Below the pieces are notes generated by a model. The model searched no databases. It saw only the letters and a list, made by a program, of their open reading frames with translations, and was not told where the DNA came from. A program made the position numbers and the translations under genes. 64,000 nt of DNA, taken from the NCBI GenBank assembly GCA_030248295.1, contig JASANH010001708.1, positions 248,001 to 312,000 of the forward strand. The letters run 5' to 3'. The stretch is from Mesodorylaimus sp. YZB2_4 (taxonomy: Eukaryota > Nematoda > Enoplea > Dorylaimida > Dorylaimidae). Each line of letters begins with the position of its first letter. Position 1 is the stretch's first letter. Shown here piece by piece: positions 5,483 to 64,000 of the stretch.

Positions 5483-5484
5483 TT

Positions 5485-28927: not shown

Positions 28928-28928
28928 T

Positions 28929-29400
28929 CGGTCGCCAACTGTCGGCTGTCCGTCGGCTGTCCGTCGGCTGTCCGTCGGCTGTCCGTCGGCTATCCGTCGG
29001 CTGTCCGTCGGCTGTCCGTCGGCTATCCGTCGGCTGTCCTTCGGCTATCCGTCGGCTATCCGTCGGCTATCCGTCAGCTGTCTGTCGGCTGTCCATCGGC
29101 TGTCCGTCGGCTGTCCGTTGGCTGTCCGTCGGCTGTCCATCAGCTGTCCTTCGGCTGTCCTTCGGCTGTCCTTCGGCTATCCGTCGGCTATCCATCGGCT
29201 GTCCGTCGGCTGTCCGTCGGCTGTCCATCGGCTGTCCTTCGGCCATCCGCCGCCTATCCATCGGCTGTCCGTCGGCTGTCCTTCGGCTATCCGCCGGCTA
29301 TCCATCGGCTGTCCGTCGGCTATCCATCGGCTTTCTGTCGGCTGTCCATCGGCTGTCCGTCGGCTGTCCATCGGCAATCCGCCGGCTGCCTGTCGGCCAT
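28929..29400. repeat. Second 11-bp satellite array, about 43 monomers
   Basis: Same monomers as the main array. The left junction follows AACTCAAGTAGGT of duplicated unit 1; in unit 2 that sequence runs into unique DNA instead, so this array sits between the two units. Confidence 0.95.
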
Positions 29401-30515
29401 TTGTCAGCTATCCTCCAGCCGACTTTGGCGGGGAAAATTTCATGTATACTGAACAAGGAAATACTACTTTACTGAAAATGTGGAGTGCGTTAAACATATT
29501 TCTTGTGCAAAAAGCAAGTTAATCCGTTAGACTGATGGAATCAAGTTATTTTAAAAGAATGTAAGGCTTGCTGCGAAATCGGTTGTAGGAGATGTGTCGA
29601 GGGTGTCAGAATCGGCTAACCGAAAAGGTCGGCAAGCCGGTAAAGTCCTATCCTGACGCTGGCGCAATGGAAGTGTAACCAGTCCACTGGAAGGCGTAGG
29701 AGGGAGGTTGCCGACAGAAGTCGGCGGGACATTGCGCTTTTGCTGGCATTGCTCGACACCCAAGAACTTTGGCACCCAAAGAAGGCAAGGTGTTGCAGTA
29801 TTGAGTAAGTCACGGAATGTCTCTTGACTTTGTTCACGTCAGAAGCAAACGTAATAGGTACTCAAACAGATGGCCAATCATCTTTACAGTATATACAATA
29901 TGTACAGTCTGCGGCTCTGTGGCTGCCTGGTATATCCCCATCAATTAACGGTTCATATTCCAACCTCAATTCTGCAGATTTCAGTCCAGTATGTCCTCTT
30001 GCGAATATGCTTTATGCAGAAACAGACCTAAGTAGCCTATGCCAAGCACTGCCAAGACCGTTGATCATGCGCTTTAGTAGGCAAAAAGGGGTCATGCCAT
30101 ACTTTACCCATAGCCAAGCACTGTACAGCGCTTGAGGGCTCAGGAACACGTTTGACAATCATTTTGTACCAGGGCGGGAGTCGAACCCTCCCGTGTAAGT
30201 GCGCAGCCAGCGTGAGAGGCAGACGCTAGGCCACGACCCCGGCCAGGGAGTGATCAAGCGGGTCGAGTGTGACAAAATACTTTTTTTTTTGCTGCTTCTC
30301 CGACATCTGATCGGCCTGCACGAAATGAAGATAATTCAGCTTTCAGAAAATTTTTTTGAAGTCTAGTTTCCCAGTGTCTTCCAATTGTTCTTTTGTTCCT
30401 GTTTCTTATTGACGGCTAATGTGTGTGCTCATATTTAGTTTATGTGACTACAAGTACGGAACAGCTGTTTACCGAATCATTCTCCAAACCATTTGAGCGC
30501 GCCAACTCAAGTAGG
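29383..30515. repeat. 1.13-kb duplicated unit, copy 2, with S2 SINE
   Basis: Second copy of the unit at 27795. It contains the matching S2 SINE at 30068-30244 on the minus strand. Near-identity points to a recent unequal exchange. Confidence 0.95.
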
Positions 30516-37356: not shown

Positions 37357-40300
37357 TTATACGAACACATAGTTTGGCATGAGACCTTCTGCCGTGACGA
37401 TGGAAGGTGTCAAATCGCTGTCGTAAAGGAAATAGAAAGGAAATTCAACTAAATGGCCCTGGACCTTGGTCAGTAGCTTGGCAGCAGTTTCTGGATCACG
37501 ATCGGCTAAAGTAATTTTTTGTTCATTTAGAGCAAAGTCGGCTAATGTTCGAAGTCGATCAGACGGGGCGCATTCAAACACCTGAAAACAACCAATAATA
37601 TGTGTTGGTCAGCAGTGACCACTCATCAATAAGACGCATACCCTGTCGTACAGTTGAGTATTTTTCTTCGCGATGCTATTCCAAAGATTCCAAAACTTAT
37701 CCGATACTGGATCACTGATATCGATGTCATGAGTCGGGCTATCGGCGCTCATCAAACCCAAATGTTCTGCGAATAAATGTTTCCTGAGAGAACTGGCAAA
37801 CGAGCCTGACCAGCGGTCGCTCATTTCAAGTTTTGCGAATTCAGTGTCTTCTACAAAAAGTGCAACTTCCGAATCACGCATGCCCAACTGCGATCGATCA
37901 TTTATATTGGCTGAACCGATCAGAACAAATCGATCGTCGACAATGATCAGCTTGCTGTGAATATAGACCAATTCCGTGACCTAGAGATGGTCAGAAGTCA
38001 AGATTGGGGGTAAACATTTCAAAATGACATCATACCAGTTTATTGAGAAGTCTAGAATGGGTTCGAAGTGCGCAAAACGTGATATACGGGCTGGGGTCGC
38101 CGACTAAAACAGCAAAAGGTTCCTGATAAAGGATCAAAATTTGCATAGCTTACTTTCTTGTTTCAATCGCGTAATCAGACTTCGCGGGCCTTTTGAAACT
38201 GACATGTAGGTCCAATGCAGCACAACTTGCAAAGAGCCACTTTGCTTTTCGAACGCGGGCAAGAGCTAGAAGCAACAGAAATAAAGACCTGAGAGACAAG
38301 AACAAAGAACCAAACTTACTGGCATGACAATGTAGACGCGGAATGTCTCGCGTTTCCTGAAGAAAAAGCAAGGAAATCGACAGCTAAGCAAAAGTTGCTT
38401 CGCATTTATCCGAGCCCATAGAAGACCGTGGCAGATTGGACTGTCCAAACGACCTTCTGACCCTTTGCTTTCCCATCCAAGCGACGACTATTCTTCAAGC
38501 CTAATTTTGCCCACCTGGTTGCACCTCTCAGAAACTCCCGGTAGTCGGTCTCACTTTACCGCTGGAGGGGCGTGAACTCAAGGTGGGGGCCGAGCCTCGA
38601 CAACTGATTGTGAGTTTCGTCCCTTGACTTGAATTTGGGCTTTCACCCTTCTAAATCTCAACTACTACACTGCATGGGTGGTGCTGGTTTCATGGGAGGT
38701 CACAGAGGTAGAACAATGACTTACTTGTGAGCTCGTACAATCCGATCAAACAGTGCCGCAGAAATTTGATTTTGCACATCGGTGCCTCCCATTTGACTAA
38801 TGAAAAATTGGTTCTGAAAAGTCGTAATTATTGTACACGCTTACTTACAAAGTCATTGATTCCATGCAAAGTACACACGTATTCGCACACAGTATTGTAA
38901 CAAATCTACAGTACTGCACTTGCCTCGATATAAATATAGTGTTCCGCTTCACCGATCATATCCAAATAGGCATTCTGGATACTACATTCAGTGGCATCGA
39001 TGGCGGCGGACCACATGGATGCACTTCGGAGTATCTGCGAGAAAGAGACAACGAATGATCATACGCAGAACCCCTGCCTTCGTCGTCCTCGAGACAGAAG
39101 CAGAATACCTTCCCACTTTCGATCTCAAAATCCTACGCGCATCAGATGCTGTAGGCCACATATTCAGGGAGAGCGACAGAGCGATATGTGAGCGACAGTG
39201 CCATAGTGGCAGCCAGTGGAAACAGGAAATTAGAAGAAGCCTCCACATTGTAGGTAAGAGAAAAAGTAATAGGTGGTGTAAAAGCAAGGGCAGGTACAGT
39301 GCGAGTCCGAGTCTGAGAAGTATGCGAGAAGGGTACACTTAAAAACAAGGAAGATATATATGCTCCCACAAACATGCAATCATACCTGAGCACGACATGG
39401 GTGAGAAATCCGTCGGAAGATGTCTGGAACGTGGATGCTGTCGTATGATTTGGGAATCAATAGTGGGTACTTGACGTCGACATGAAGTGCATCCAACTGA
39501 AATATCAGCAGTCAGTAGTTTATTCAAATACCAAGGTTTCGCAGAGATAACAGTATTTCTCAGAGATTATATAACCAGCATTCGCAGCGGTTTGAAGATC
39601 GATACTCTCCCCTGGCTAGGATACGTCAACCCCTGCGGTTGACGTTTATAGGGCAGGTATAGCCGCAAGACCTGCCTTCCTCCAGTTGAAGTTGTGGCCC
39701 AAGAGACTGCGGCCTCAACTATCTCCCGCCGCCTGGGTGCGCTGGTTACAATTTGCTCCCGAGGCTCTATAGTATTTCGAACAATCAGGGGTCGCCAGAC
39801 AGGTCTGTCCGGGGTCCGTTCTATCATTTCGATCCAAATATGGGACATATCAGCAGACACTGAACCGTAAAAGCATTTTCTGGGTAAGAAGACCCGTATT
39901 TTATATTTGTCATGATTTTTTACACCAGCACACTGACTATGAGTCATGAAACATTACATGCATGAGCCGCTAGTCACCCGGAGCAGGCCTGTCATGTTCT
40001 AGCTTGAACAGCGTCTGAACCTCCTAGGCTTTATTCGAGGGGTATCTTATTTCAAAAGGACCCTGAGGGATTTAAGGTAAGCTTACTTTGGTAGAATTCC
40101 AACGCTGGATGAAATGCCGAGCGACATCCCTGGCCGCACTGCCATAAACTACTGACGATATGTCATGCCAGGGCAATCGAGGGATAGCAGTGCGGTCAAC
40201 AAAATCTGAAATAAGCGCTGGTCAACGTGCGCAAGGAAGGTTGCCGGCACCACCTTATCGCTGTGATAGGCGTGTTTGGCTTGTGGAGAAGGCTGTGTAC

Positions 40301-43300
40301 TGTATACTTGGCTGCCTTAAATGCCGCGAAGCAATTGCCTTCGCTGCCTGCTCGATACGCGCCTCAAACGAGGCAAAAACCCGTCAGGTTGATGTATCGG
40401 GCTGCTTAGAGGCCTGCCGGGAGGGTTTTTGATACTATCCTCCTCCCGCGGTATTTTCTCCAGTGCAGGGGCATTCAGCATACACTGCTTACCCTCGAAT
40501 GGCTTCTCTGGTTCCGGAATGTCCTTGTGTATGAAATTGACGTAGTCCTTGCCAGGCCACAGTTTCTTGTTTCCGATCACTGAACGTCGACCTTTGAGTC
40601 CGCTGAGCCTAAAAGCAACATTGGATTGATGCCATGATTCTGGAGAGCAAGGGTAATTGACTTACACCGACGCCCATCGCTTGTCTTTTTCGAAATTTTC
40701 CAATCGACGGTACCTCTGAAATCAAGTTAGCGATAAAATTTGGGCGATAGAACCCTAAATTAATATTACTGTTCGAAAAATTTCTGCTAGACTCGAGGTC
40801 GGATGAGGTTGAGCGGCAGTGCCATCAGTTGCCTCGGCATTACGAGACGTTTCACTCCCATCTGGTCCATCGAAATGCACTTTCTTAGACCTCTCTGGTG
40901 AAGAGGATGCCAGGAGGGGATCGTCCGCATTGGGCAACGATTGTGGGGGAGTGTAATACATTTCTTCCGTTCGTGAGTCCTGACTGTGATAACGATCGCG
41001 CAACTGCTCTACCACATCGGGTTGGTCAGCAGGATATTCCAAGTCCTCACTGTAACCGAGATCGGTAAGCCTGCAAGAAATAAGATGCTTAGCTGCTTGG
41101 TAGGACCTGCCCCAATTAGAATAGTCAGACACACCCCAGCCAATCGTACCATGACCACCTGATCCAAGTCACACCCACCTGTGCTTGTGGTCATCCCATC
41201 TTCCATAGCATAAATCGATTCCTCCCACAAACGCGATCTGTTGATCAACAACAACAACTTTCTCGTGATGCGCCCAGTAAACCACTCCGCTGTAGATGTG
41301 GTCTGGGTGACGCATAACCTGCAAAGGGGGAACTATCGAAACCGGATCATATCACACTTGAGCACTACTCACTCGGATATTCGGGTGAAGTCCAATCAAA
41401 TATTTCTCAGTGAACAGGCTGTTCAGCCCCAATGCCAAAGTGACTTCCTTGTAGACCAAAACAAATATGCGAACGCCCGCTTCAGCCTTCCTCTTCAGGA
41501 CATTATCCAACCGCCAGTGCTCATCTTTCATTGGTCTTTTCAAATAGATGTGCGGGTTCAACCACCAATCGGTGATAAATATTTCTTCCCTGCGATGAAG
41601 ATAATCTGATTATGAGGACTACCACATAAAGCGGATTGGGCGTACTACTGTGGAAGGTTTTGGTGGATACCAAACTGAGCCAGCCCTCTCACTAAAGTCA
41701 TATGGGACGGCACTGAATGCTGGTAGGCCCATCAGTCGAACAATCAGGCCCCTCCATAGTCTTTCTCTGGTGAACCCTCAGAGCGCAGCGCCTAAAATCA
41801 TACTTTGCAATTTCGATCATATTTGCCACGTGATCCATGAAAGATCGGCCATCGACGAACCACTGAGCATAGCTGGCCTCACGTTCAGGAAATGAGCTAC
41901 CAAATCGATGCCATTGAAGCCAAATATCACCTCTAGCTCGGCTGACGCCCGTTATCTCCTCTCGCCACGCCTCAGCCTCCTCTGCATTTCGACACTTGAT
42001 GACCAAATCGCGTTGCAGGTTCCTGATGGTCAGCCCGTGGGGATCATTGTTCGGAATTCGTCTAGGATCAGTCACGGCTTTGAAGTAGGCGTCGTATAGA
42101 ACCACGTCGTATACTGTTTCCTCGTCGTCGTGTAACGAAGCGACAAAACTGTCTTTGACTACTAGCCACCTGAAAAAGGCACCGATGCAATTGTGCCAGC
42201 ATTTTTTGGCGCTAGATTGACACCTTTTTTTCCATTTGCAACAGTTGGTCAAACAAAAGTTTCGAATTCTATGCAAGGCGTACTCTCCGCCCGGCCTTTG
42301 TTTGATGTATCCCTCGCAATGTTTGCAGCCGAGATTGTGGACGAATGAAAGACGACTGACGCCAAGAAATTCGACCTGAAAGATGTTTGCTTAGACTGAC
42401 AGTCAATAAATCGTGCAAAAGATACAAGGAAGACCACTTACAGTTTCGTGATGGTTTCGATAGGCGTGAATGTGTAAGACAGCGGACAGGTATTCCTGAA
42501 GTCGGGCCTAAAACGCATAGTACAAGGTAACAAGACAGAAGACATTTCGCACTCTTATCTTACCTTTCTTTCTTCCAAATGTTCTTCATCGATGAAGGAG
42601 TCCGGCAAAGATGGGAAATCAGGTAATTTATGTCGACGACTTTTCTTACATTCGACTGGTTCGTCCTTGGCGGGCTTCTCAGGTGCAGCATCGATATAGT
42701 CGATACCTTGCGCCCCATTGGCAGTGAATGGAGATACTGGAGTGTGGGTCGGATGAAAACTGAGTTGAATTTCGTCCGTATCATTTCGCCTTGATGGAAT
42801 TAGAACCGCTTCATCATTGGTCCATCCTTCGATAATGTCACCACCACCGGTATAGTGCAAAGTATGAATCCCGAAAGTCCTAAAATAGGCCTGGAATGTA
42901 CATATACATCTGGCAACTCCACAAAGATCACACGATAAGATAACAGGCTCTTCTGTGCACGATGCATAGTCAGCAGTGAAATGTCAAGTGCAATTTCTGC
43001 ATGTACGAGCATATCCATACTTGCAATAATTTGCGGTTACTGTTGCATATTTTCAATTCTTACCTTCATCCTCGACCTTCTGGATTATGGAAACTTTGCA
43101 CCCTTCGCTATTGCTCACCTAACATATGCATCCTGCACTTCACCGCACGTTTACTCACCCTTCGTCTTTGTGATGTTTCGGACGGTGAATTCTGAAAAGC
43201 ACACTTTGTTGTTGCTCTCGAATGTTACGAGTGTCGTAAAAAAACCGCAAACTTTTTAAAGGGCGCCTTTAACTTGGTTCCAGCGTGAAAAAGTTTCAAA

Positions 43301-43773
43301 CGATTATTCAATTGAAAAAAGTCCCCGTAGCGACGGTGCACAGTCCACTCGTACTTGCCGTGTTTCAAATTGATAGTGTATCTGCAAAAGGGAAAAGAAT
43401 AAAAATTATTGCTAAGAATTACGAAACTGACTCACATATATCGATTTATTGGATGAGCAATGCCTCTGGTATCGCGTTCCACATGTTCAATGTTCGCAGT
43501 GACAGGTAATGCAGGAATGAAATAACCACGTTCACGAAAGTGCTTTTTATCATCATACACACTTATATATGGAATTCTGTCTGAAAATAAATTTGAATCT
43601 TGTCGCTGTTGCAATTACCAAAGCCAAAGCCCGATCTTACCAGATCTTTTCTCTTGTTCATCAGGACAATCGCATTCGTCAAATTCATCACCTTCTGACT
43701 CACTGCTACTTGAATCACTTTCATCAGGAGCGGTCAAACGATTATGGAGTTCAATAGCCTCAGGCGAAGCCAT
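37357..43773 (-). CDS. Phospholipase D (PX-PH-HKD type), copy 2
   Basis: Twenty-one exons on the minus strand, 1121 residues: 43773-43641, 43580-43436, 43381-43229, 42879-42564, 42507-42442, 42375-42224, 42169-41804, 41589-41373, 41318-41179, 41070-40770, 40715-40666, 40608-40493, 40205-40087, 39496-39386, 39034-38924, 38813-38725, 38356-38320, 38265-38154, 38103-38036, 37980-37642, 37581-37357. Domains follow copy 1: PX ([20 protein letters not shown]), PH, HKD1 HHEKVVVVD (His about 534), [17 protein letters not shown]2 [10 protein letters not shown] (His about 942). Every intron is at the matching position and phase. Exon 15 ends at a GC donor (GCAAGT). The 54-nt intron 42223-42170 is in frame and stop-free, so retaining it would add 18 residues before the PH domain. 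The end of exon 3 (43229) is the least certain splice. Confidence 0.93.
39596..39745. repeat. Dispersed repeat R3, copy in PLD copy 2 intron
   Basis: Contains ACGTCAACCCCT, GGTATAGCCGCAAGACCTGC and CTCCAGT in an order also found at 46606-46770. GGCAGGT and ACCTGCC can pair as a small hairpin. On the minus strand GGTTGACGTATCC is B-box-like, so it may be another SINE type. Confidence 0.55.
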
Positions 43774-44320
43774 AATTCTTAGCTAACCGTATAACCTTTC
43801 TGTAAATGCCAGTTTTATTGTGCAAGTAACAATAGTACTTCGACTGGGCTGATAAAGGCGAGGTGATAAGACTAGAAGGCAAAGAGTTATCCGAGTTCTT
43901 ATCTCTTTGACGCATGCCGGTACCCGTCGTGCCAAGCTAAAGGCCATGTCGTAGCTGCAACGCGGACTGACATTCGTAGGGACGAAGATATATAAAAAGT
44001 CCGCGCTACACATAAGACTAAAGCCAGTACGTGCAAGGGAGGGAAGCTCGAATCTATATAACGATTTGCAGAGACTGGTTCGTTCTCGACCCTCGATCAA
44101 TAGTTGTTAGCCGACGAGGAGGAGGAGTAAGCAGTACGAGCATGCTTTGTAAACATGGGAACATGTATGCTACTGGAGGCAGCTCATGCCCAGAATGGAA
44201 AAACCTGTTTTCAATGAAAATGATTGTGGACAGTGCGACAAGAGCTATTTGAGTAGAGTGGAATAACCTTATTCTCTACATCGTTAGAGAGCCTGTCTGA
44301 TACCGAAATAGTGTTCACTT
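43774..44320. other. Intergenic, upstream of PLD copy 2 and peptide gene A
   Basis: No gene recognised. It is the likely promoter side for PLD copy 2 on the minus strand. Confidence 0.4.
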
Positions 44321-44806
44321 ATGTTCACTTATGGACGTCTAACCTGCACCTACTCTTTTGTTGCCACAATCCGCTTTGATCGAAATTTCAGTATCCTCTT
44401 TGTAGGAGACGCAAAAAGGGGTGGCTCTAAAATTTTTCAGTGCGCCAGGGAACATTACGGTGATGAGCATAAAAAATTTCCGATAGCTGTTTGCTATTTT
44501 ACAGCCATCTTTTAGCCAGAAAATCTGTTTTTGAATCACCTGCTCAACTTGCGCCCTTTTACCTTGACCAGAGCGATCACGTAAAATAGCATGTGAGCCT
44601 GTCATCTATGTGAGCTATGAGTATGACAGATATACGCAATTGCCACATTTTAAGCTGCATTCTGGGATCAAGGTCGGAAAAAGGCAAATGGCAGCACGCT
44701 ATTGATTTATAAGATAAGTTATTATAATGAGGGTGTTTGATATTTTGACATGCTGATAAAATTTTTCACCCACATTCCAGACTGAATACGTATTTTATAA
44801 AGCCTG

Positions 44807-44814
44807 TATAAAAG
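44807..44814 (+). promoter_or_regulatory. TATA box of peptide gene A
   Basis: TATAAAAG, 95 bp before the ATG. It is conserved in the duplicate at 47725. Confidence 0.65.
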
Positions 44815-44909
44815 AAAGCAGACACTGTGACAGCATATATCCCGTTGCTGGATACAAACAGCTGTAGCAAGTCTCGGAGATCACCTTTCTCGATTTGAAA
44901 GTGGATAAT

Positions 44910-45269
44910 ATGATCACCTTGGCCTGCGTCTGCATTTCCATACTGGTATGCACAGCTTCGTGCAAACCGATTATTGTAGAAGATGTCGATGGGTCTGACA
45001 ACGAGGAAACGGTTTGGACCAAATTCGCTGATGCAGACAAAAGCTTTTCGTATGAAGTTTCCCGTGAGGTTATCGAGTCCCAGCCATCGAACATCGAAGA
45101 AACAGATCTGCTGAGAGAAAGTTCATATCGCGGAAAAAGATTTATCTTGCCGCATTTGCAACACGCCTGGCTGTCAAGAAAAGTAAGTGGTCACTTGACC
45201 CGTTTGGAACAAAATGCATTTTGCTTTCTCTAACAGGAAAAGATAAACAAGGGCATCGCGACGTTGTGA
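44910..45269 (+). CDS. Small secreted peptide precursor A, frameshifted paralogue
   Basis: Exons 44910-45182 and 45237-45269 give 101 residues as they stand. A signal peptide (MITLACVCISILVCTASC) and an acidic propeptide lead to the dibasic RGKR, as in the intact paralogue B at 47810. Just after KR, two bases are missing compared with B, so the frame changes: the open frame gives RFILPHLQHAWLSRK and loses both Cys. In the shifted frame the sibling sequence is still visible (CRICNTPGCQEK), but it meets TAA three codons into exon 2. Either it is a recent pseudogene or it now makes a linear peptide. The promoter with TATA box is kept. Confidence 0.6.
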
Positions 45270-45480
45270 AAAGCAATAGCTCATCGTAAGCCATCGCATC
45301 GCAATGTGGTGAACAGAAGCTTATGAAAATAAGACCGCACTTTATGATATCTGATCGAGGGCGATTCATGTTATTCGGTTTAAACTTTTGTGGCATGTTA
45401 CATTGTGTACATGTAGTACAGAAAAATGCCACAGCTACCAGTGATTTGATACAGTAGGGTGTGACTTAGAGACGAAAGAT

Positions 45481-46605
45481 AAACATAAACATAGAAATAG
45501 GCTCATCCTTGGGCGAACTATAGGACAAGTCAGTGGGCGGTCTTACTTGTTAGCGACAGCAGCGAGCCCACGAACCCACGTACCCTACGACGCATCGTGA
45601 ACATCGTTTATTTCGCCAACCACTCACGAGGGACGATTTAGGTTCACGACTCGGAGGGCGGACCCGCTGTAAGAGAGGCAGACCAGTTCCCTGAACCAGC
45701 GCACTGATAGGAGCAGATAAGGCATCTGCGATACTCCTCCCAACTACGGATGGATGTATGTACACCTGTACGTGGAACAAAATCACCCTTACGTGCTCCG
45801 TTCTGAAACGGACGCCAGTAACGGTAGTTCTTTACTGGGCCGACAGGCACACACCTCCACAAGGATAGGGCAGCCAAGCGACGCGCACGTAATGAGGGAG
45901 AAGCAGTTAGGATAGACCCACCCGCTCGTGACAAGATACGCAGACGGACTGAAGGCAGTCCAGTAGGCCATGAAGGCCTAAAGGGCACCTACTGTAGTCC
46001 TAGAGCGAGTCAGGATTAGATCTAGGCTCGCTCTTCCTAACTCCAAATCGAGAGAGGTCGAGCGTAGAAAGTGTTCACGAGTTGCAGCAAAGCGACCCAA
46101 ATCAGTAGAGGCGAGTCCTTATCAAGAGATGCGGGTTACATATCCGCGCCTATTACAACATTTGCTGAACGATTCCAGTAAAATATTGACAAGTGAATCA
46201 AATAAACTCTCATAAGAAGCGGTGCTCGGTCTAGGATGGGAATCTCACTTTTCATGCAGTGGTTTCTTCAGCTAAACATCGCTGATGTGGTCAGGATTCA
46301 TGCCATAGCCATTGAAGGCATGATTTTATGAGTCAGAGCTACTTTTTTGAGCAAAATGCCATAGTCGTAAGTGTGATGTGCAAATGATAAAAAGTCTGCT
46401 GCGCTTGAGAATTAGACTGTGCTGCATGCATTTCAGTTGGGCTAACGGATATGGCTGCTGTACGCACACGCTTAATCACATGTGAGGATGATAAAGGACA
46501 GAGAGAGCAGAATTTATTGTCCGATTACATTGTACTGCTGATCCAGCTGAGTTCCATGTGTGATACTCGCGCCTGGCAGGCCATGGCGAGTGGGAGAGAG
46601 TAATC
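45481..46605. other. Intergenic, no gene supported
   Basis: Open frames on the minus strand (45550-45990) lack motifs or splice logic. AATAAA at about 46200. Nothing else recognised. Confidence 0.4.
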
Positions 46606-46770
46606 CACTGGCTGGGAGACGTCAACCCCTCGAATTGGTGTTTCAGCCGTAGGTATAGTCGCAAGACTTGCCAGCTCCAGTAGGAGTTTTTGTGCCGCCG
46701 ATTTCGGTCGGCCACCTCCCTCCAACGCCTGCCAGGCTTGCTTACACTTGCAAGCGTTTCCTAACTCCCT
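46606..46770. repeat. Dispersed repeat R3, second copy
   Basis: GACGTCAACCCCT, GTTTCAGCCG, GGTATAGTCGCAAGACTTGC and GCTCCAGT match the copy at 39596. Confidence 0.55.
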
Positions 46771-47254
46771 TCATATGCTGAACCTCCAAATCGTATAAGA
46801 CAATTGTCTTGGCACTTGCACGTTACAAATCTTGATAAAAAGCAAAGTCTTCTCTTTTGAACCCTCAGAGCATCTTCCACAAAGCTGGCTGCACCCCCAA
46901 TACCTGCAGATCACTTTGCTCAACGGCCAGACCTGATCACGCTTATAAAATGCCAAAAATCGATTGTTGAACAGTATACACGAGACACGTCTCCACCACT
47001 CTCATAGTTCCTATACAGTATCCGCCAAGTCGTCATTCCTGATGCCATGAAACGACTAACTCCAATGTCCGTTGGTTCCCATGTACTTGTACTGTCCCCC
47101 CAATACCCGGCACTGCCCCTCAATGAGCACACAGTCTTCATGATTGTACTTCAATTTCTCAACTTGATTATTTCTGTGATGTCCATCACAGATTTTTGTT
47201 GGCAATTCCTTTTGTGCAGAGCATCAGTTGGAAGATTAATGCTACGGTCGTCAT
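46771..47254. other. Intergenic
   Basis: No feature recognised before the second duplication block. Confidence 0.4.
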
Positions 47255-47724
47255 CTAATCTGCACCCCCTGCTCTTTCTTGCCTTATCCGCTTTGGTCGA
47301 TACTGAAAGTCCGCTTTGGTCGAGCTTTCAGTATCCTCTTTGTGGTGTACGCAGGAGACGCAAAAAGCGAGCATTGAAATTTTCAACGCGGTAGAGAAGG
47401 TTATGGTGATGAGCATAAAAATTTCGGATGGCTGTTTGCCATTTCGCGTTGCCATCTTTTAGAAAGAAAATCTGTTTTTACATCTCCTGCTCCAATTGTG
47501 GGCTTTTACTTGATCAGTGCAGTCAAACTATGTAGCATGCGAGCCTGCAAAGCGCCCATCATCAAAGCTACGGATGTGATTTAAATACAATTGGCGCATC
47601 CGAGCTGCATTCTAGGATTAAGGTCGAAAGAAGGTAAATGGCAGACGGCTCTTATTTGACAGTATGATAAGCTATAATGCTGGTTTTTGACATTTTTATA
47701 TTCTAGAATATTTTATCAAACCTC

Positions 47725-47732
47725 TATAAAAG
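47725..47732 (+). promoter_or_regulatory. TATA box of peptide gene B
   Basis: TATAAAAG, 77 bp before the ATG, in the same context (CCTCTATAAAAGAGAGCAG) as in gene A. Confidence 0.65.
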
Positions 47733-47809
47733 AGAGCAGAAATTCTGGCAGGATAGCCCATAGCTGGATACATATAGCGTCTTGAAAAATAGCCTCCTTA
47801 GCGGTCAAC

Positions 47810-48214
47810 ATGGTCAATATGACCTACGTCTGCATTTCCATCCTGGTATGCACAGTTTCGTGCAAACCAGTTATTGTAGAAGACGATTGGTCCAAAACTG
47901 ACGAAATGGTTTTGACCGAATTGGATGGCACAGACGAGAGGTATCTCTATGAAGAGATCAGTGAAGTTTGCAGTGAGGGACTCGAGATCCAGCCATCAAG
48001 CATCGAAGCAACAGATCTGCTGGAAGAAAGTTCATTTCGTGTAAAAAGATCCATTCTCTGCCGCATTTTCAACACGTCTGGTTGTGAAGAAAAGTAAGTG
48101 GTCACTTGGCCCTTTTAGGGCAGAATGCATTCTTTTTTCGCTTACAGGAAAAGTAGAACAAGGGCATCCCGACGTGGCGGAAAGCATGAGCTCAGCCATC
48201 GTAAATTGTGGTGA
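47810..48214 (+). CDS. Small secreted cyclic-peptide precursor B
   Basis: Exons 47810-48093 and 48148-48214, phase 2, 116 residues. Layout: signal peptide (MTYVCISILVCTVSC), acidic propeptide of about 60 residues, dibasic VKR, then mature peptide starting SILCRIFNTSGCEEK. Two Cys are seven residues apart. The second exon gives a strongly basic tail (KSRTRASRRGGK) ending HRKLW-stop. The same layout is found in C (52983) and D (51265). It should be secreted, cut after KR and closed by one disulfide. It could be a neuropeptide or a cationic antimicrobial peptide; the ring is reminiscent of small cyclic neuropeptides, but no known family is assigned. The intron is 54 nt. Confidence 0.8.
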
Positions 48215-48536
48215 ACAGAAGAGGCGTGAAAAATGATACGATATAATGCAAAAAATGATATTTTGATACTTTGATATTTGTGATATTGTTTATTGATCTA
48301 GCGAAAGCGAACGACTACATCTCAGTTATTTGTTTGTTATTTGATAGTTTTCTACGAGCGATCATTGTTCTTTGGCTCGGAGCTTTTGTTGAATATTATC
48401 CTGTGTCTACAGAAAAATGCCACAGCTGCCGGTGACTTAGAGACGAATGATGGACATTTGGTTTTATAGCATTTAATTGAAGATTCGTGATCCTCTGCCG
48501 TGGCTCCCGAATGACACAGCACCCAGTTATGCTTTA

Positions 48537-48965
48537 AAAAAGCCGCCGTGGCTCATTTTGTTAGGCATTGGTCCCGCTTTGCTGGGGCTAGCAACCCTGA
48601 CTGGGAGGCCGCAGTTGTATTCCGGCTGAGGACTGCGATTTACAGTAGTAGGCATTGCTGGCCTTGTACTCCTTGCTCTGGCGACTCACCAGCGGGTACC
48701 GTCGAATGGCGAACGCCGAACGAGTAGAGAATCAGGAGACTGGTTCTCGAACACCAGTCGGGAAGGACCCTCCACAATTGCTCAGTATCATCCTGGGACG
48801 CAGGATGCCTTCGTTTGGAGGTATTTCTAGCCAAGACACGCAGAGGGAAGCTGTTGTGAGAGCAGGTCACCTCTCGGCCTCGCTTATTATATCGCGAGTG
48901 CTGGCCTGCTATAGGCAAAAGGGGTTGGAAGTCCCGTTGGGAACTAGGGCGGCACAGGGCCCAAC
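48537..48965 (+). mobile_element. SINE family S1, near full-length copy
   Basis: Starts GCCGCCGTGGCTCATTTTGT (A-box-like) and continues with TTGCTGGCCTTGTACTCC, GACTCACCAGCGGGTACCG, ATCCTGGGACGCAGGATGCC, AAGACACGCAGAGGGAAGC and AGGGGTTGGAAGTCCC. It defines the 3' half of the family together with the 23105 copy. The B box is degraded. Confidence 0.68.
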
Positions 48966-49384
48966 CCACAAAAATTTTAAGGAAACCCTAATTATGCTTC
49001 GGCTCCTTTCATAAGGTCTGCTGAATGCGCAGTCAGATGGGCTTGCCTGGAAAGAGTGGAACGCTTGATGATTCTACTGTATATTCAAGTAGATTTTGCC
49101 CGAGTAGATTTCCAGGAGGTTTTAAATTTTGTTTGGTTTCAACGTTTCTGCTTCGTTCAAAATAGTTATATGTACTAGGGTGGCTAATAAGATGAAGTTC
49201 GAGTTCGAGTTCAATCATGATGGAGAATTTAGTTTTATATAAACAGAACGCATGGATATCGTTGCATACGGGTTCAGAGAAGGGCTAGGCACGATATCAA
49301 CAGGCAGATAGAAGTCGAGTGACGGTTTGGTTGCAAGTAACTAATGTTTGATGACTGATCTGGACTGCTATAGGCTATTCTGCC
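48966..49384. other. Intergenic
   Basis: No feature recognised. Confidence 0.4.
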
Positions 49385-49790
49385 TTCAGACTTGGGTGAG
49401 ACCAGACCAACCATTGTTCATTTCAGGACCGCATGCAAGCAGATCAGCCATCTCGGAGTCAAGCTTCTGGTTTGTTACCTTTGCGTGCTTGTCTACATAG
49501 TCGCACACTATTTGTTGTAGGGCACGACTCGACTTTTCACTTTGCAACTCGGCCATGTTGCCAAAAACGGAGAGTATAAAGAGATGCATTGTTATCATAG
49601 TAATTATTGACTATAAAAGAAAAAAAATGGCGCCCTGGAGAAGCTACTCTGATACTGGTTGGAATTTGATGTCTTTCGTCACACGATGCTATCATGGCCT
49701 CTCGTTTTTATGAGTTTAGTGCAAAGGGCGACGTCACCTTTGAGATATTTGGTCAGGGAATAACAAGCAAAAGGGGTGCAACTTCTTACG
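49385..49790 (-). pseudogene. Inverted, truncated copy of peptide gene D (copy E)
   Basis: On the minus strand this segment parallels the promoter and 5' end of gene D (50925-51335): CTTTGCACTAAACTC, GTGACGAAAGACATC, CCAGTATCAGAGTA, ATAACAATGCATCT and TTTGGCAACAT occur in order. The start MDKLLAYG of D corresponds to MADLLACG here, but the reading frame ends after about 20 residues (SGLTQV-stop), before any KR site or Cys ring. The 70-residue open frame through it (start 49598) is made mostly of promoter sequence. The copy is truncated and inactive. Confidence 0.75.
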
Positions 49791-50924
49791 TCCATTTTCA
49801 GTGGCTCCTCCTCTCCTGTGCTCACACTTACTTGTTCATCATTCTTACTGTCACGAATAGTGCCAAGCAGAAATGCTATCAGCAAAGTTGGTGCAGCGAA
49901 GAATTGACTGCATAGTATTTGAAGAACTTTTTCTGATAAGCTTACTTCAGCACCCGTCTGGTAAACTCGTATTGGAGCCGCGTCAATGACACAAACGTTA
50001 GCTTGGCAGCCGCGAAATGTGGAGCGCCAAAGTCTGACGAGGACGCGTAGGCATACTGCGAAGTCACCTTCTGATTCCCTTAACGTTTTGTCAAGCGCAG
50101 ACTCATTTTCTACGCAGAAAAAGGCGCTGAAACTGAAGGAATTTGAGTAAAATTTGGGGCAAATAATCCCGCAGTGAGAGAGGGACAAAAAGAAGGGACG
50201 TTCCAGACTTAAAAAAAACACTGCACCCGTAAATCGAATTGCATCGTGTCACCTTAGAAGCGCCAGAATACAGTACGCGCTAAAAGAATGCTTGCATCCT
50301 CTCTCACGATCAGGTCCAGACACGAGGATACTTTGAGGTTTTTCTTCAAGAACACGCTTTCAAAATGGCAGAAACATGCCATTTATCAATACTAATAACC
50401 AATACCAAAATTATATAAGGCGGACCCTGCCTGTAACAAAACAGGACACACTGTGATAGGTCGCCCTGTTTGCCAGTATGAGGTGGATGAGGAACGGGGC
50501 GCGAAAGCAACCTGCTAGCTTTAAACAGAAGACCGATTCCGCATCCAAGAAGATTTCAAGGGGTATAAAATGAGTTTTAGAAGGCATGCAGTTTCGCGCC
50601 GTGATTTCACTAAAGATTTGAACAGATTCTAAATTTTTTTCACAGCTATTTTAAAAAAGCTAGTTACCGAAAATCACTACAGCGCCGAATATATCATTTC
50701 GTGCATAATATATGCCCCTACATCCTCGAGTAACTACGCGTACCTGCTCTTGGTAATGTGGTAACGCATGAAAATCAACTGAAGCGCGGAAGACATTTCC
50801 CTTTCTTTTATGTGCTTCTTTGGTGTACTAGTAGATGAACCGCAGCCAGTCGGCGTCTGCTTACTGTAAAAGTACTGTCCTAGACAATCACAACAAAACT
50901 TATCACCGTTGAGCTAGCTCAGCC
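49791..50924. other. Spacer between the inverted copies E and D
   Basis: No gene supported. The minus-strand open frame at 49679-50221 overlaps the duplicated promoter arm and has no coherent exon structure. Confidence 0.45.
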
Positions 50925-51335
50925 ATCCAAAAAACCTGACTTACGCGCGCCACTAAAATATCTCGACTTGACACCGCCCTTTGCACTAAACTCTCAAAAA
51001 ACGAAAAAGTTCGTGATAAGATCGAGTGACGAAAGACATCCAATGCCAGCCAGTATCAGAGTAACATGCGAGCTAGCTTCTCCTTAGCGCCAACTTTTTG
51101 CTTCTATAGCCAATAATCATAACGATAACAATGCATCTTTTTATATGTACTGTTTGGCAACATATTGCCGAGCTGCGTCACTATTGAACAGTCGAGGTGC
51201 CGCAAAACGAATACGGCCAGACAAGCGCACAAAGGTGAAAAAAGAACAGAAGCTAGCCTCCGTGATGGATAAACTACTTGCATATGGTCTTGGAATAATT
51301 ATAATTGTTGGCCTGGTCTCGCCCAGGTCACTGAC
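50925..51335. repeat. Right arm of inverted duplication (promoter and 5' end of gene D)
   Basis: Inverted partner of 49385-49790, about 400 bp with moderate divergence. The segment covers the upstream region and the first 24 or so codons of gene D. Confidence 0.75.
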
Positions 51336-51682
51336 TAAGGACAACTTTAGTCAATCGCCCGCCATGTTTGAAAATGATGCGATTGGAAACCCATTGTTTT
51401 CGAAAATCGACAAAACGACGGAGCTGCGAAGTAAAAGGTCCGTATTTTGGATCAAACCCCATCTTTGCTCAATTGTCAAGATGCCTGCTTGCGATAAGAG
51501 GTAAGCATTTTGCATCTTACGGCAAATCGCAGACGCACTTCGCTTACAGTATGCAGAGTGCATTTGCCATCGACTGTGGATGCAGTATCGATTGGATCAC
51601 CAAGTCATTCCAGCTTTTCAAGATACTCGCTTCTAGGAAAAAGAAAAGATTGCATTCACTCGATCGTGTCAAGCTTTGGTGA
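51265..51682 (+). CDS. Small secreted cyclic-peptide precursor D
   Basis: Exons 51265-51500 and 51637-51682, phase 2, 93 residues. The start at 51265 is chosen because a hydrophobic signal follows (LLAYGLGIIIIVGLVS); an upstream ATG gives a basic, non-signal leader. After the propeptide, RSKR precedes SVFWIKPHLCSIVKMPACDK: Cys-x7-Cys with PAC as in gene C. Exon 2 begins at the TTCTAG acceptor and encodes KKKRLHSLDRVKLW-stop, so the ending KLW equals that of gene B. An alternative acceptor at 51549 (TTACAG) would insert 29 residues in the same frame (SMQSAFAIDCGCS...). The mature N-terminus is longer than in B and C by about six residues. Confidence 0.78.
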
Positions 51683-52760
51683 AGAAGAATTGTAAAGAGA
51701 AATTCTTAGAATGAGGGGCATTTGTTAGAACAAGGGAATAGTTAGTTAGGGGTTAAACAAGGGGAGGAGGTAAAAGGTTGGTTTCATTTATAGGGTGTCA
51801 AAAGACAGTTCTAGCAGCAGAATTTTGTGTAACAGCCTTTGTGATCCGCCTAGCTTGGCAGTTTTCTAGCAGTGTCTGAACATGGTAATATGCGTGCGTT
51901 GACGTGATCTTGTACTAATCCTGGATACGGGTGGATTAAAATACAATAGTTGATGTGTAGTAGCTTATGGGCAGATGTCTGTGACAGTGCTGTAGTAGTC
52001 TGTGCCGCAGTGGTAAAAAATGGATATACAGTAGATTGTGACCGAATTCTGAGCCTACTGTACCCAAGCAAACATTTTAAAGCCTGTATTTTTGATCACC
52101 CATGGAGAACTGATAATGAGTACTGTAGATTGTCCTGAGGCTTCCAATATCTTCCACACTTTAACTATCTCTCATGCGATTAAAAGAATCTGGCTGTTCT
52201 TCCCTCCTTAAGTGTACACAGCTTCAAAACCCATTTTATAGAATAATGTCATTGTTTTAAAAACAGGGAGGGCATGAGCAGACCAATCAATCAAAGGAGG
52301 CAGTCGAATGGGGCCGCGCCCCCCCCACCCCAACAGATCCAGCAGGCAGTCGGTTGGGTTGACCAATGGCTATGGCTCCCTGCCCTCCACATCCTCTTTT
52401 ACATGCACCAGCGCACCCTCAGCGCGGTGACCTCTGCGTTTTAGTCCAACGATCCAACATAATTTCTCACCAACAGCAGGAAGCTTACTTTGAACCTGTA
52501 CATGTAGTAAAGGAGTCTAGTGTACGCATGGTAAATGGAGAATCTGACATATGGAAAATTCCATCTAATCTTTGCTAGTCGTCCCAAAACCTGTAATACC
52601 TGTTGCAATATGATCGTAACCTTCCTGTCTGATGCTTAATTTTTTTCCAAGCTGCCATTTACCACCGAACTGGCAAAGCCTCATCCTGAAAACCAGTCAT
52701 GCATTAAAAAAATGACATGGCTTGTGATAAAAGCGAAAGAAAGGTCTCGTAGCATCTTAC
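51683..52760. other. Intergenic, no gene supported
   Basis: Several TACTGTA/TACAGTA words (52028, 52055, 52119). No exon or RNA gene recognised. Confidence 0.4.
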
Positions 52761-52935
52761 CAAGTACCGGTACATCCAAAGCAGCGTCATTACGTTCAAG
52801 TTTCAGCCAGCATAAAAGATAAGGCATAAGCAATTCAGGGTTTTTGCGCGTCTTCTCGTCTGGTATGAAATGTAGAGATTCGAGCAGATTCACATAAAAG
52901 GGTGCGGCAAGCTTACTGAACACCCATCTTTTCTT
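52761..52935 (-). CDS. Possible exon, unrecognised protein
   Basis: A minus-strand block with a good acceptor (TCTCTGTTTCAG) and donor (GTAAGATG) reads KKRWVFSKLAAPFYVNLLES and ends DVPVLG. Its composition looks like a real helical protein, but joining to the next acceptor (TGGTTTTCAG near 52697) gives an immediate stop, and upstream exons would underlie gene C on the other strand. It may be a relic. No family recognised. Confidence 0.25.
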
Positions 52936-52982
52936 CTGAAACAGAGACGTGTGCTTGAACGATTTTACAATCGCTTTTCAAA

Positions 52983-53316
52983 ATGATCAATTTGACATCG
53001 ACCTACGTGTTTGGTTTTTGTATGGCACTGACTCTTTGCGTGGCTTTGTGCAGGCCAACGATTAAGGAAGAGGTTGCGATAATTACGATCCAAGATGAGG
53101 AAAATCAGTCAGAGCCAGTTGAATCGAATGAAGATATGGCCACCTTGCAGCAACGCGTGAGAATGAAACGATCAGATTTGTGTTTGATTTTCAAAATCCC
53201 AGCCTGCGTTAACAAGTAAGCCATCAGCCGACATATTTCACTTGCCTACTGTTATCCCATTTTCCTATTATAGGCAAAAGACGCATGCATCACGTCATCA
53301 TCATACGCGATGGTGA
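52983..53316 (+). CDS. Small secreted cyclic-peptide precursor C
   Basis: Exons 52983-53215 and 53274-53316, phase 2, 91 residues. Signal peptide (STYVFGFCMALTLCVALC), acidic propeptide, then MKR before SDLCLIFKIPACVNK: Cys-x7-Cys with the PAC end shared with D. Exon 2 encodes QKTHASRHHHTRW-stop, so the tail is basic, His-rich and ends in Trp like B and D. The intron is 58 nt. The gene is 340 bp from the stop of the ITIH-like gene, which runs toward it. No TATA box was seen at the spacing found in A and B. Same family as B and D; function unknown. Confidence 0.78.
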
Positions 53317-53654
53317 GAACATCTTTGCTTTCGACCACACAATCTGTTGATCGTATTTGATGGTTATATTTTGATCTTATGGAGTACGAAAGATGGATAC
53401 CTCTCTTATTTGTTAGGGTGTGTAAACAGTTTGGCGAACGAAAGTATATTATTTGTACAGAATTTGTGTCGGTACCCGTATGTGTCTGATGTGTTCAGTA
53501 ACTGGTACGATTTGGATGCTGATAAACTCGAAGGTAGCACAGTAACCTCTGTGAACTTGTACCACGTAAAGGGCAAGATAATTTTCAACACATCAAATAA
53601 GAGCACTGCACGCAAATTGAAAAAAAAGGCGGTCATGTGTATGGAAACAGCAAA

Positions 53655-56600
53655 TTAGCATTTCACCAAGGCATCTTCAGCGAACTGGTCTCCAGTTGTT
53701 GGTGGTGTCTTGTACACTCTGTTTGAATCTTGGGAAATACTAGAGAGGATATTATCAAAATCACTCGAATTATCATTGACGAAAGAGACCACATAGATGT
53801 TCCGATGACTGGCAAAGTGCATGGATGCGTTCACGGCGAACTGCACCGACTTGGTGGTGAATAGGAAGATTACGTATCGTTTAATAGTAGGTGAAAAAGT
53901 AGACTGCATATCGATGGCTTGCAACAGAGTCGAGTTGACAGTGACGTTCGAGTTTTGTGAAGTTTTGTGATCAAGAATATCTGGAATAGAGCTCATATCT
54001 TGAATGACGGTGGCTTGGCCATCAGTAAACGAGTTCAAGAGAGCAGCGCGTGCATTGATATGGGTTTGGTTTAGGATCCTTCTCAAAGCAGCAGCGGTAA
54101 AGTCACCACGGCGTCGATCAATTTCTGGCGTCACATCAGAATCTTGTTCGACGAAGATGATTTCTTTCCTGCAGTCTGAAAAACAAAATAGCCGTGACAG
54201 AGAACTAGCATGAGCAGCCCGCTTGGCTGGGTGGATAAGAGGGAGTCTGCTTCCCACGCCTGGTTCGACTGACTCAAAAACATCTCGGTTTTTCTTCGGT
54301 TTGAGTGCGCAAACCGTTTAAAAAACCATTTTTACATGAAATGGGTTTTAGAAACCTAATAATAATCTGCGTACACTGCAAGAGGAGGACAGACATCCTT
54401 TGTCAATCGTAGAAGACGAGGTAGGAGATTGACGCAGGGGCGGATGAAATGTCAAAAAGAGGTTCTTATGATCAAGCTCGACCACACCGCACATACCTGG
54501 CTCTCTTGGTAATCCAGTTGTTGGGGGTGGTCGCTGCTGCTCACCAGCACCAGCGTTTATTGGTTCAGATTCTTCCGTTTTGTCGGCAGTAGACTGAGGA
54601 GCTGGAGCGGGTGCAGGTGCGGGTGCACGTGGTGCAGGAGGTGGCGGAGGTGGTGGTGGTCCAGATGCAGCACCCCCTAATGACCCGATAGGTCCTGGAA
54701 CGCCTCCTGGTTTTCGGGCAAAAAGTAAAACGCGCTATCAGTTTGTGAATAGGTTTAGAAGACAAGCATTCTTACCAAAACTTGCTGCTGCCGGACCACC
54801 AAATCCCCGACCGCCAAAGGCTGCGAAAGAAGCTGCGCCAGGCGCACCTCCAGCACCAGATGACGATTGAGGAGACTTCTCTTCTTTCAGGGTAGTTGCC
54901 TCTGTTTCGTTAGGCTTGACCACCACCATGGACGTGAGTTCAGTGACGAAGTGATACTGAAACAGTATTCTGATCAGACCCGGTATCTTGGCTCACCTTA
55001 TCTTGGCTTACTTTCAAGCTGAGTCCCAATGCTTTCTTCTTGGCCGCGTCCTTTTCGGAAGTGCTGTCCTTCAACTCGCTGTCTTTTAACAATTCCTTGA
55101 TGGTCTGATAAGCCCACACGCGTTCGACGAAGCCACCTACTGAAGTAGCAGGCAATGGTTCCTTGGGAGCGGGGGTAGGTGGTAGTGGGCAATTACGCCA
55201 CCAGCAGCAGTGTGGTGGGGGACAGCACCAAATTGGAGGACGATAGAATGGAACACCAGCGGCTGGAGAAAATCTGGGATCTGCTGCTGGCGCAACATCG
55301 TAGTACACGATTGGCCAGGGTTCGCGACACATAATTGGAGGCAATGAGTGGGCAACAATGTCCACGCTTCCTTTAGGTCCCTGACCACTAACTTTGGCGC
55401 TGACAGTCTCGCCGCCATTGACTTTGTCATCTCGCAATTTTCCGACCACGACCAGCTCGCTGCCGTCATAGTAATTGTTACTGGAGTCCTGAATCACGCT
55501 CGATGCGTCCACCGTCTCATTCAGGTAATCGATTTTGACATTGGTCAACAATGGAGATGAGATTTCTTCGTAGAAACCAGCCAATTGTATGGATGAGTCA
55601 CTATCCTCGTAGACCCTCCTGGCTAGACCCTTATTACGCCCAGAGATTTTCTGAAGGATCTGGTAATCGCTGTCCTCGCCAAATCCAACACTGTGAACAA
55701 TAATCTTCCGTTCTTGATCATTAGATTTGGTGGTATCGTTCACGATCTCATCCCGATTCGTGATGCCTGAGGTCGGTTGACCATCGGTCAAGAACAGAAT
55801 CATGGGCACGTTGGCCGATGATGATTTCTTGAGTATCTTGATGGCTTCTTGTAGAGAGTCGTAGATGTTAGTGCCTGAAATACAGAAATCGGTGTTAGTA
55901 ACACTGGGGTTGCACGAGCATGAGCATGAGTCAAGCCAGTCTGATAGGCACTGATAAAGTCAACCAGACCACAACTTACCCCCATCAGCCTCGGTGTCCT
56001 GCACGTAGGAGATAGCAGCCTTCACATTGTCTGCATTGGCCTTAGAGAATTCTTTCCTCCATGTTTCCAACTTGTCGGAGAAAAAGATGATTTGGAAGCT
56101 GTCTTCAGCATTCAGGTCGTTAAGGATCACTTTCATGGCGTCCTAAAACCAGTTTACCTCCTAATATTGTCGAGGCTGCCTCCGACTTTTTGTAACCAGC
56201 ATACCTTCAATTGTTCCATCTTCCGTCCTTGCATGGAACCAGATTTGTCCAAGACGAAGACGATGTCCTTGGGTCGCTTTTGAAGGCCTTCTGGTGCAAA
56301 GAAATGAACAAAGTAACCGTTGACAACTTCGATATCACCTCCATTGCTGTCACGTTTAACGTCGTACAACACGACCAGTTGCCCGCTGTAGACTTCCTCT
56401 TTTGTCTTAGCCTTGGGCTGATAATGGATTTGAACACTATTTGTATCATTTTCTTTCAGAATAGGTTTGATTTCGACGTTAGGTTCGTCTGAAACATGAG
56501 AAGAGGAAGAAGATCTGTAAGAAACAGTTTGGCTTTTATTAGAGCGGCATTTCGGGCTAATTGTAAGTCACACCATCTCTAGCCAGGAACCACCCATCGC

Positions 56601-62023: not shown

Positions 62024-62998
62024 CTAAAAGCGTCTGACTACGCCAATTGTTGGGGATACTGGCGGCGCTGCAGAAATTGTTGCTTTTTTGAACATTCGTT
62101 GCACTGTTGCCCTAAATTCTCTGCTTTTCGCGAGCAAGATAAAAAAGTCTGTGCAAGTGCTGGTAACTTTTAGCATGGATGCGTACAAAATAACTTTTGG
62201 CTGATAGGTTCCATTTTGAATAACAGCGACGACTGCTGCCATTATTTCAGGGCAGACTCCGCAAATTACATAAGCCATTATAATCATCCGTATCATGGGC
62301 AATATGGACAGCTGCGTTTGAAGGAACTGGTCAAACGTTAAGTCGTTGTTAGTCAGCTGGCGGCGTCTCACAAGGCAGACGATTGATGCGTATATACACA
62401 CGGATAGCATGCAGAATGCCAGATTATGATTTGAGTAGTACTTGGTGAACGTTGGGTTGAAAGCTGAAAAGTAGTTGTAGCACATGATAACGCCAGTGAT
62501 AGGTGCCGGGGCTGATATTCCAGCTGCCAGAACATTGGACACAGCCACAATGCCGACGCACGCCAGGGTCATAGTGACAAATCGTTTTGAGTATTTCTTG
62601 TACTGAGTGGGAAATGCGATGCCATAAAATCGATCCAGACCAATTATGCATGAGAGAATAGCACTTGGCGGGATGCTTATAGTTTTTGGAATAAACATGA
62701 CATAGCAGGATAGCCTGCTATATTCTACTCCCAGTACATGCATGAAGATACCCAGTCGCTGCACACCGTCATTGATGAATCCTGTAGCCATCAACCACGC
62801 TCCGACCGAATAAGCTGCCAAAAATGTGAAACAAGGTGTATGCAGCTTCTTATTCTTCCAAATAGCTGCTATGGTCAGAGTGTTTGTCCCAACGCCCAAG
62901 ACACCAGCAACCAAGCAATAAAGACCAGCAAAGATTATCTCTGCTGAGTGTACGGTCGTCGAAGCTAATAGCACAGTTGTATCATTCGAGGGCGACAT
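62024..62998 (-). CDS. Seven-helix receptor, nematode Srsx-like
   Basis: Single exon, 324 residues. The start at 62998 (MSPSNDTT) places an N-glycosylation site at the outer N-terminus; an upstream ATG at 63037 adds 13 residues. Seven hydrophobic helices are visible. Helix 1 has GTNTLTIAAI (conserved Asn), helix 3 ends GLDRFYGIAFP (the DRY-type motif in the form seen in nematode Srsx receptors), and YKKYSKR follows in loop 2. The third inner loop carries VRRRQLTNND, and the tail is basic. Such receptors are usually chemosensory or peptide receptors coupled to G proteins. The ligand is unknown. A decayed tandem copy lies just downstream at 60245. Lack of introns is unusual beside the other genes. 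Confidence 0.82.
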   Translation of the reverse strand: MSPSNDTTVLLASTTVHSAEIIFAGLYCLVAGVLGVGTNTLTIAAIWKNKKLHTPCFTFLAAYSVGAWLMATGFINDGVQRLGIFMHVLGVEYSRLSCYVMFIPKTISIPPSAILSCIIGLDRFYGIAFPTQYKKYSKRFVTMTLACVGIVAVSNVLAAGISAPAPITGVIMCYNYFSAFNPTFTKYYSNHNLAFCMLSVCIYASIVCLVRRRQLTNNDLTFDQFLQTQLSILPMIRMIIMAYVICGVCPEIMAAVVAVIQNGTYQPKVILYASMLKVTSTCTDFFILLAKSREFRATVQRMFKKATISAAPPVSPTIGVVRRF

Positions 62999-64000
62999 AG
63001 CTGCAATCCTGGCTTCCCGCAAGCACAGGAGCGACAAATGCTACTTGGGGGGAAATACACTGGGACTTCCTTTCGCGAATCAATGAGCTTATAGTGTTCC
63101 CGCCGTTTGACTAAGAAATTTATCTGCTTTTACCAGCTTTTAAAGCACCTGTCAAACATTTATTTGAAATGAATAATGCCCTTCTCACGATCAGCCGGAG
63201 AAGACTTTAGTCAAAGTCAGAGCTTTTGTTCTGAAGAATGAACACGTACCTAATCCGAGTTACCCAAAGTAGATGTCTTTTCCGCAAAGATTTGAACAAT
63301 GCCACAATAATTTCGTTGCGAGAAACAAGTGATGTTCGCGCCATGCGGGTTATTGCCATCTAAACCATAAGGTACTTTTGGATCAATTATCTGTCCTAGG
63401 AGTCGATTCGATGTTCGCAAATAAGTTCAACCACACAAAATCTGACGTGAGCATTGTAAAAATAACCTCCTGCCAAAATTCCTTTCTCTTTGGTCCAGTT
63501 AGGCATTAGAATGATTATGCAAAATATTTCACAGTGCAGTAGCTGGCCTGCAAATGGCGACGTTGATCGATGCCGGTGAAAAAACACAGAGTACTCAGCG
63601 CAATAAACCGATGTGCAGTCAATTTCCACTTTGTGAATATACTGTATCTATGTGCAGCAGTAGGAGCACCGGTTCAAAAGTAGCAGTTACACAATATTGT
63701 CATCGCAGCGTTGGGTCGCCAATGATACATTTCCAAATAAAACAGTTGGATGATACGATCACACAATCTTTGTTGCACAGGTGCAGAGCGAAAAAGTTTC
63801 ACCTTACGCACAGTAATATTCTTGGCGACACAACGATTTTTGTACTGTATCGGTAGCTAAGAGCATCCTTCTCGTAGCAACTGGAATTCTCGCTTGTGTT
63901 GCTGATGCCGGTACTGCACTCTCCAGGGGTACGCCTTTGACTGTCTCCTTGAACTCCTTATAAAAGAAATAAGATATGTGAAATGATCAACAAAATGAAG
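62999..64000. other. Intergenic to window end
   Basis: Upstream side of the receptor gene. Short open frames (63396-63629, 63554-63856) have no motifs. No repeat recognised. Confidence 0.4.

Follow-up and report, generated by a model that had tools for sequence, protein, structure and literature searches.

In this study, we analyzed a 64,000-nucleotide (nt) stretch of DNA from Mesodorylaimus sp. YZB2_4, called the window here, which corresponds to positions 248001-312000 of contig C95 (JASANH010001708.1) in the 145 Mb assembly, and we focused on a cluster of genes predicted to encode small secreted peptides with a two-cysteine ring. Within one 8.4 kb span (44910-53316 of the window), three two-exon genes, designated B, C, and D, and a broken fourth copy, designated A, are found in the same orientation (Table 1). 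All three genes are intact in sequence, with predicted products of 116 residues (B), 93 residues (C, with an intron of 136 nt), and 91 residues (D). They have the following layout in common: a leader called hydrophobic by eye rather than by a signal-peptide program, a spacer, the residues Lys-Arg-Ser (Lys-Arg is abbreviated KR below), a nine-residue C-x7-C ring with the consensus C-x-I-[FV]-x-x-[PS]-[AG]-C, a phase-2 intron, and a second exon running to TGG-stop, i.e. to a terminal Trp. In each model, leader through ring form a single open exon, and the GTAAG donor starts two codons and two bases past the ring, resulting in phase 2. The spacers vary in length and sequence between the genes, while the ring is kept.

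Table 1. Positions of the peptide genes and their parts in the window
Feature	Positions	Strand	Remarks
TATA-like box of A	44807..44814	+	-103 from ATG
Gene A	44910..45269	+	broken copy
A exon 1	44910..45182	+	leader, acidic spacer, KR; ring CRICNTPGC in a different frame
A intron	45183..45236	+	54 nt
A exon 2 remnant	45237..45269	+	to first stop of the leader frame
TATA-like box of B	47725..47732	+	TATAAAAG; 85 nt 5′ of ATG
Gene B	47810..48214	+	
B exon 1	47810..48093	+	leader, acidic spacer, KR, ring
B ring	48059..48085	+	CRIFNTSGC
B intron	48094..48147	+	phase 2, 54 nt
B exon 2	48148..48214	+	basic tail, end HRKLW
Gene C	51265..51682	+	
C exon 1	51265..51500	+	leader, non-acidic spacer, KR, ring
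C ring	51466..51492	+	CSIVKMPAC
C intron	51501..51636	+	phase 2, 136 nt (alternative: 49 nt, 51501-51549)
C exon 2	51637..51682	+	tail, end VKLW
TATA-like box of D	52893..52900	+	CATAAAAG; -90 from ATG
Gene D	52983..53316	+	
D exon 1	52983..53215	+	leader, mildly acidic spacer, KR, ring
D ring	53181..53207	+	CLIFKIPAC
D intron	53216..53273	+	phase 2, 58 nt
D exon 2	53274..53316	+	tail, end HTRW

For B, C, and D, the initial annotation had described a leader, a KR site, a C-x7-C ring, and a phase-2 intron directly following it, and each of these parts was found in all three genes. Its acidic propeptide holds for B (net charge -13, counted from residue 21 and including KR) and weakly for D (-3), but not for C (+2). 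In the two-exon models, the acceptor of C is ambiguous: introns of 49 and 136 nt are both plausible, and both products end in KLW. The 49-nt intron ends with TCGCTTACAG as does the B intron and yields a longer tail with two extra cysteines; the 136-nt intron yields a tail resembling that of B. Also, the cluster had been taken to start at 44910, where the frame-broken copy A lies, and it is the other three copies that are intact. A clear TATA-like box upstream of the ATG was absent from gene C.

Homology between B and D is strong (z 11.6; the score was reached by 0/2000 shuffles), and it is weaker for B-C and C-D (z 5.7 and 6.1), each with 0/2000 shuffles at full length; without the first 25 residues, the observed scores were reached by 2/2000 (B-C) and 1/2000 shuffles (C-D). 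The codon comparison took in 13 codons per pair, those for KRS, Leu, and the nine ring residues. C and D are identical at 10 of the 13 residues, seven of which are encoded by different codons (synonymous differences pS 1.04, nonsynonymous differences pN 0.13). B and D agree at eight residues, five with different codons (pS 0.94, pN 0.25), and B and C at seven, three with different codons (pS 0.45, pN 0.23). For two of the three pairs (C-D and B-D), silent sites are close to saturated, while the ring is kept. Because residues are retained and codons differ, these data point to purifying selection on the ring. The tail was considered as a second conserved peptide and rejected: positive charge and TGG-stop, as annotated initially, are present in all three genes, but the conservation had been over-read, as little else is shared. 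With the Trp included, the tail scores were reached by 52 (B-D), 59 (B-C), and 997 (C-D) of 2000 shuffles, and without it by 196, 988, and 458, respectively; beyond Trp and charge, the tails are not significantly alike.

Gene A is a copy of B located 2.9 kb away; in the upstream alignment, 348 of 485 bases are identical, and in the intron 43 of 54. Its frame shifts between KR and the ring, and the ring frame meets a stop shortly past the splice site; decay is the best reading of this copy.

The rarity of the layout was determined in 264 kb of the contig (positions 138001-402000, both strands), comprising the window and 20 further stretches; the filters were drawn from B, C, and D themselves, so that the counts measure rarity and are not an independent discovery. 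In six-frame open frames of at least 25 residues, the ring consensus matched four strings, namely B, C, D, and a 31-residue frame (contig positions 380430-380522, minus strand) with no dibasic site in view. A filter for the layout ([KR]R, 1-12 residues, C-x7-C, a phase-2 GTAA/GTGA/GTAT donor at most six codons further on, and at least 40 open codons upstream) had exactly three matches, which were B, C, and D. The same three were the ones with a Trp-ended tail among 28 phase-2 GTAAG donors that had an acceptor and were preceded by 60 or more open codons (0/25 for the others), at a background rate of Trp before stop of 390 in 21417 six-frame stops (1.8%). When B, C, D, and ring fragments were used as queries against the whole genome, no copies other than those of the window were returned; this search was insensitive (the D query missed B), and the firm copy number therefore applies to the 264 kb rather than to the 145 Mb.

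A kept peptide with varying spacers is a pattern of peptide-hormone precursors, and leader, spacer, convertase site, and a constrained two-cysteine ring are the parts of such a precursor. On this basis, we lean towards reading B, C, and D as tandemly arranged genes of one family, whose secreted precursors would release a signalling peptide closed by a disulfide, i.e. a neuropeptide or peptide hormone. We infer that the genes are transcribed and spliced as modelled; the leader would then route the precursor for secretion, cleavage after KR would be by a PC2-type convertase, and the two cysteines with seven residues between them would close the nine-residue ring. The released peptide may act on a G-protein-coupled receptor (GPCR), like somatostatin/allatostatin-C (SS/AstC) and elevenin. 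Dibasic sites past the ring of B (KK, RR) and C (KR, KKKR) could allow removal of the tail to leave the short ring peptides SILCRIFNTSGCEE and SVFWIKPHLCSIVKMPACD, while D, having no dibasic site past the ring, may retain its Trp-ended tail. A processed, secreted cyclic peptide under selection had also been proposed initially; the layout supports the processing and the codon data the selection on the ring. An AlphaFold model of the D exon-1 product was confident only in a leader helix at residues 4-22 (predicted local distance difference test, pLDDT, about 80). As a whole, the model was too weak to base a fold search on (mean pLDDT 56.5, predicted template modelling score 0.27, three-row alignment); it would match the expectation for a precursor and is weak evidence.

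Several observations weigh against a signalling role. The selection test on the ring covers 13 codons per pair. Near-neutral divergence was found for leader and spacer between A and B (omega 0.80, bootstrap 0.44-1.78), although A is broken; this fits a loss of function of A together with free change of the spacer and alone gives no support for selection. The ends of the B, C, and D products carry no Gly for amidation, and no hairpin is predicted in the ring by the D model. The products from KR to the end have a net charge of +4 to +8 and an isoelectric point of 9.85-10.92, which would also suit an antimicrobial peptide. Comparing the ring interiors with six published rings (18 comparisons, 2000 shuffles each), none stands out once the number of comparisons is taken into account: the best scores were reached by 64 (D versus Aplysia AstC), 71 (C versus elevenin), and 89 shuffles (B versus Aplysia AstC), and scores against NLP-99 and two nematode-motif rings were no better than those of shuffles.

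None of the three proteins matched Pfam at E<=10 with search filters on, and D, which alone was searched against the PDB, had no match there. Together with the lack of clear likeness to the six published rings, this agrees, for the collections searched, with the initial statement that such a ring and tail were known from no family. As the family searches were empty, the genes are perhaps lineage-restricted, which is a guess. We can place only tentative belief in a more specific version of the signalling explanation, in which they would form an independent cyclic hormone family of the nematode lineage, with a nine-residue ring, a Trp-ended basic tail, an origin apart from elevenin and AstC, and a receptor of its own, possibly of the expanded Srsx type.

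Elevenin (nematode SNET-1/NLP-83) had been named initially as a resemblance. This stands for the ring end P-A-C of C and D, but not for ring size and flanks. The position two before the second Cys is Pro in C and D and Ser in B. Elevenin has eight residues in the ring, with a conserved Asp before and Arg-Gly after it (PMC10175484), compared to seven residues in all three genes here, Leu before the ring, and E, D, or V after it. AstC, which the initial annotation had not mentioned, is the closer match in layout. In SS/AstC precursors, the ring peptide is single and lies in the C-terminal region, and the AstC genes of both C. elegans and Drosophila contain two kinds of intron, phase 0 in the N-terminal part and phase 2 in the C-terminal part (PMC7536072). 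Correspondingly, each of B, C, and D has a dibasic site, one ring peptide close to the C-terminus, and a phase-2 intron late in the gene (the published position being given as the C-terminal part), and the rings of B and D contain an aromatic residue.

It is nevertheless rather unlikely that the genes are a strongly diverged branch of the nematode AstC-like family, whose ring would have gained one residue and lost Phe-x-Pro (FxP). Such genes are numerous in nematodes (nlp-55, -62, -64, -66, -67, -71, -79, and -88 to -96), and their ring motif has six residues, mostly with FxP (PMC8764417); NLP-99 as synthesised also has a six-residue ring (PMC13082328). Protostome AstC rings generally have six residues, although in the SS/AstC family as a whole, phyla differ in ring size, with a span of 6 to 15 (PMC7536072). 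In contrast, all three genes here have seven residues and no FxP (FNTS, VKMP, and FKIP instead), and the basic tail ending in Trp is a further difference. The N-terminal phase-0 intron, described as a conserved mark of SS/AstC genes (PMC7536072), is also missing from the single leader-to-ring exon of all three models. The better shuffle counts of the B and D rings were obtained with Aplysia AstC, itself without FxP as printed (PMC10175484), whereas the nematode rings scored like shuffles. Ring size, flanks, FxP, and introns led us to reject membership in both the elevenin and the AstC family; an elevenin query and an AstC-motif query had no matches in the genome, in searches without a working control that do not imply absence. 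Rings of six and eight residues both differ from the consensus found here, and we place the precursors in neither family while reading them as probably working like those of a cyclic neuropeptide.

An antimicrobial or other defence peptide, i.e. a cationic, disulfide-braced product retaining its basic, Trp-ended tail, is still less probable. The charge of the KR-to-end products and the missing dibasic site after the D ring suit it, and so do the tandem duplication and the lost copy A, as in defence gene turnover. However, it is the spacer that changes and the ring that is kept, which is the reverse of many defence families, and a ring together with its adjoining residues carries a charge close to zero (net charge of the peptide from KR to the first dibasic site -1 in B and +1 in C; ring and near flanks of D 0). 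Single-disulfide antimicrobial peptides are known in other worms, e.g. the annelid arenicins (PMC6780910), but the five nematode groups tabulated in PMC10506718 (cecropin, diapausin, CSab, nemapore, and GRSP) include no two-Cys ring type, and the cysteine-braced ones among them carry at least six cysteines or three disulfides. B, C, and D resemble these groups in being small, basic, and by prediction secreted, and differ in the cysteine count after KR, which is two (or four in C, should the 49-nt intron be used), and in not being Gly-rich by eye.

We consider it highly improbable that the peptides are effectors which a parasitic nematode secretes to act on its host. Small secreted precursors, fast-diverging spacers, and tandem arrays are common among effectors, but nothing seen marks this nematode as a parasite (a pectate-lyase family search was empty, without a working control), and KR processing and ring constraint would better suit an endogenous receptor. 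Chance open frames or decaying functionless copies are the least probable explanation; the broken copy A and the near-neutral A-B divergence speak for it, but in the three intact copies, ring, splice phase, and Trp are all retained despite many silent changes.

Downstream of the cluster, starting about 7 kb after D, an array of Srsx-type GPCR genes was found, with four similar places between 60315 and 64000 of the window and on to about 69950 (contig C95). One of the four, at 62024-63040 (minus strand), served as reference; the place at 60315-61211 matches in two frames and looks interrupted. The array was considered as partner receptor of the peptides and rejected, because its nearness is weak evidence in a genome with at least 150 Srsx matches, many of them in single open frames of >300 residues (on this contig, the 62 kb copy alone was listed). 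For Srh, one weak match below the cut-off was obtained in the genome, unlike in a typical Srh-rich rhabditid, and the cuticle-collagen N-domain matched 133 places in the assembly, which marks the host as a nematode. A genome search for SL1 RNA had no working control and does not imply absence.

Between the peptide genes, dispersed repeats lie at 46540-46760 (16 blastn pieces) and 48500-48990 (seven pieces; self included, 264 kb). Inverted arms at 49544-49750 and 50956-51176, about 75% alike, span 1.63 kb end to end and end about 90 nt before C; the pair looks like an old terminal-inverted-repeat element and has no other copy in the 264 kb. No tRNA was detected by ARAGORN in 40000-56000. Further upstream, 5400-5955 and 24189-29520 are long, open in several frames, and read as SVGCPSAVRR-like repeats; the 24-28 kb part has a GC content of 0.63 and a strong AT skew. 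These stretches are probably tandem satellite and not genes. A long open frame at 21946-23055 (minus strand) matched the LBP/BPI/CETP C-terminal domain (9.3e-15), and another at 18111-19415 (plus strand) had no Pfam match at 0.001.

The nematode peptide catalogue of PMC8764417 covers C. elegans and nine parasites. Srh-poor lineages, to which this nematode belongs, are probably thinly covered by it. The ring size of B, C, and D is unusual, and the genes are assignable to no named group searched. With a ring size between those of AstC (six) and elevenin (eight) and a late phase-2 intron, they would be a test case for ring-size change in cyclic hormones, and they would provide small, concrete peptides for synthesis and receptor screening.

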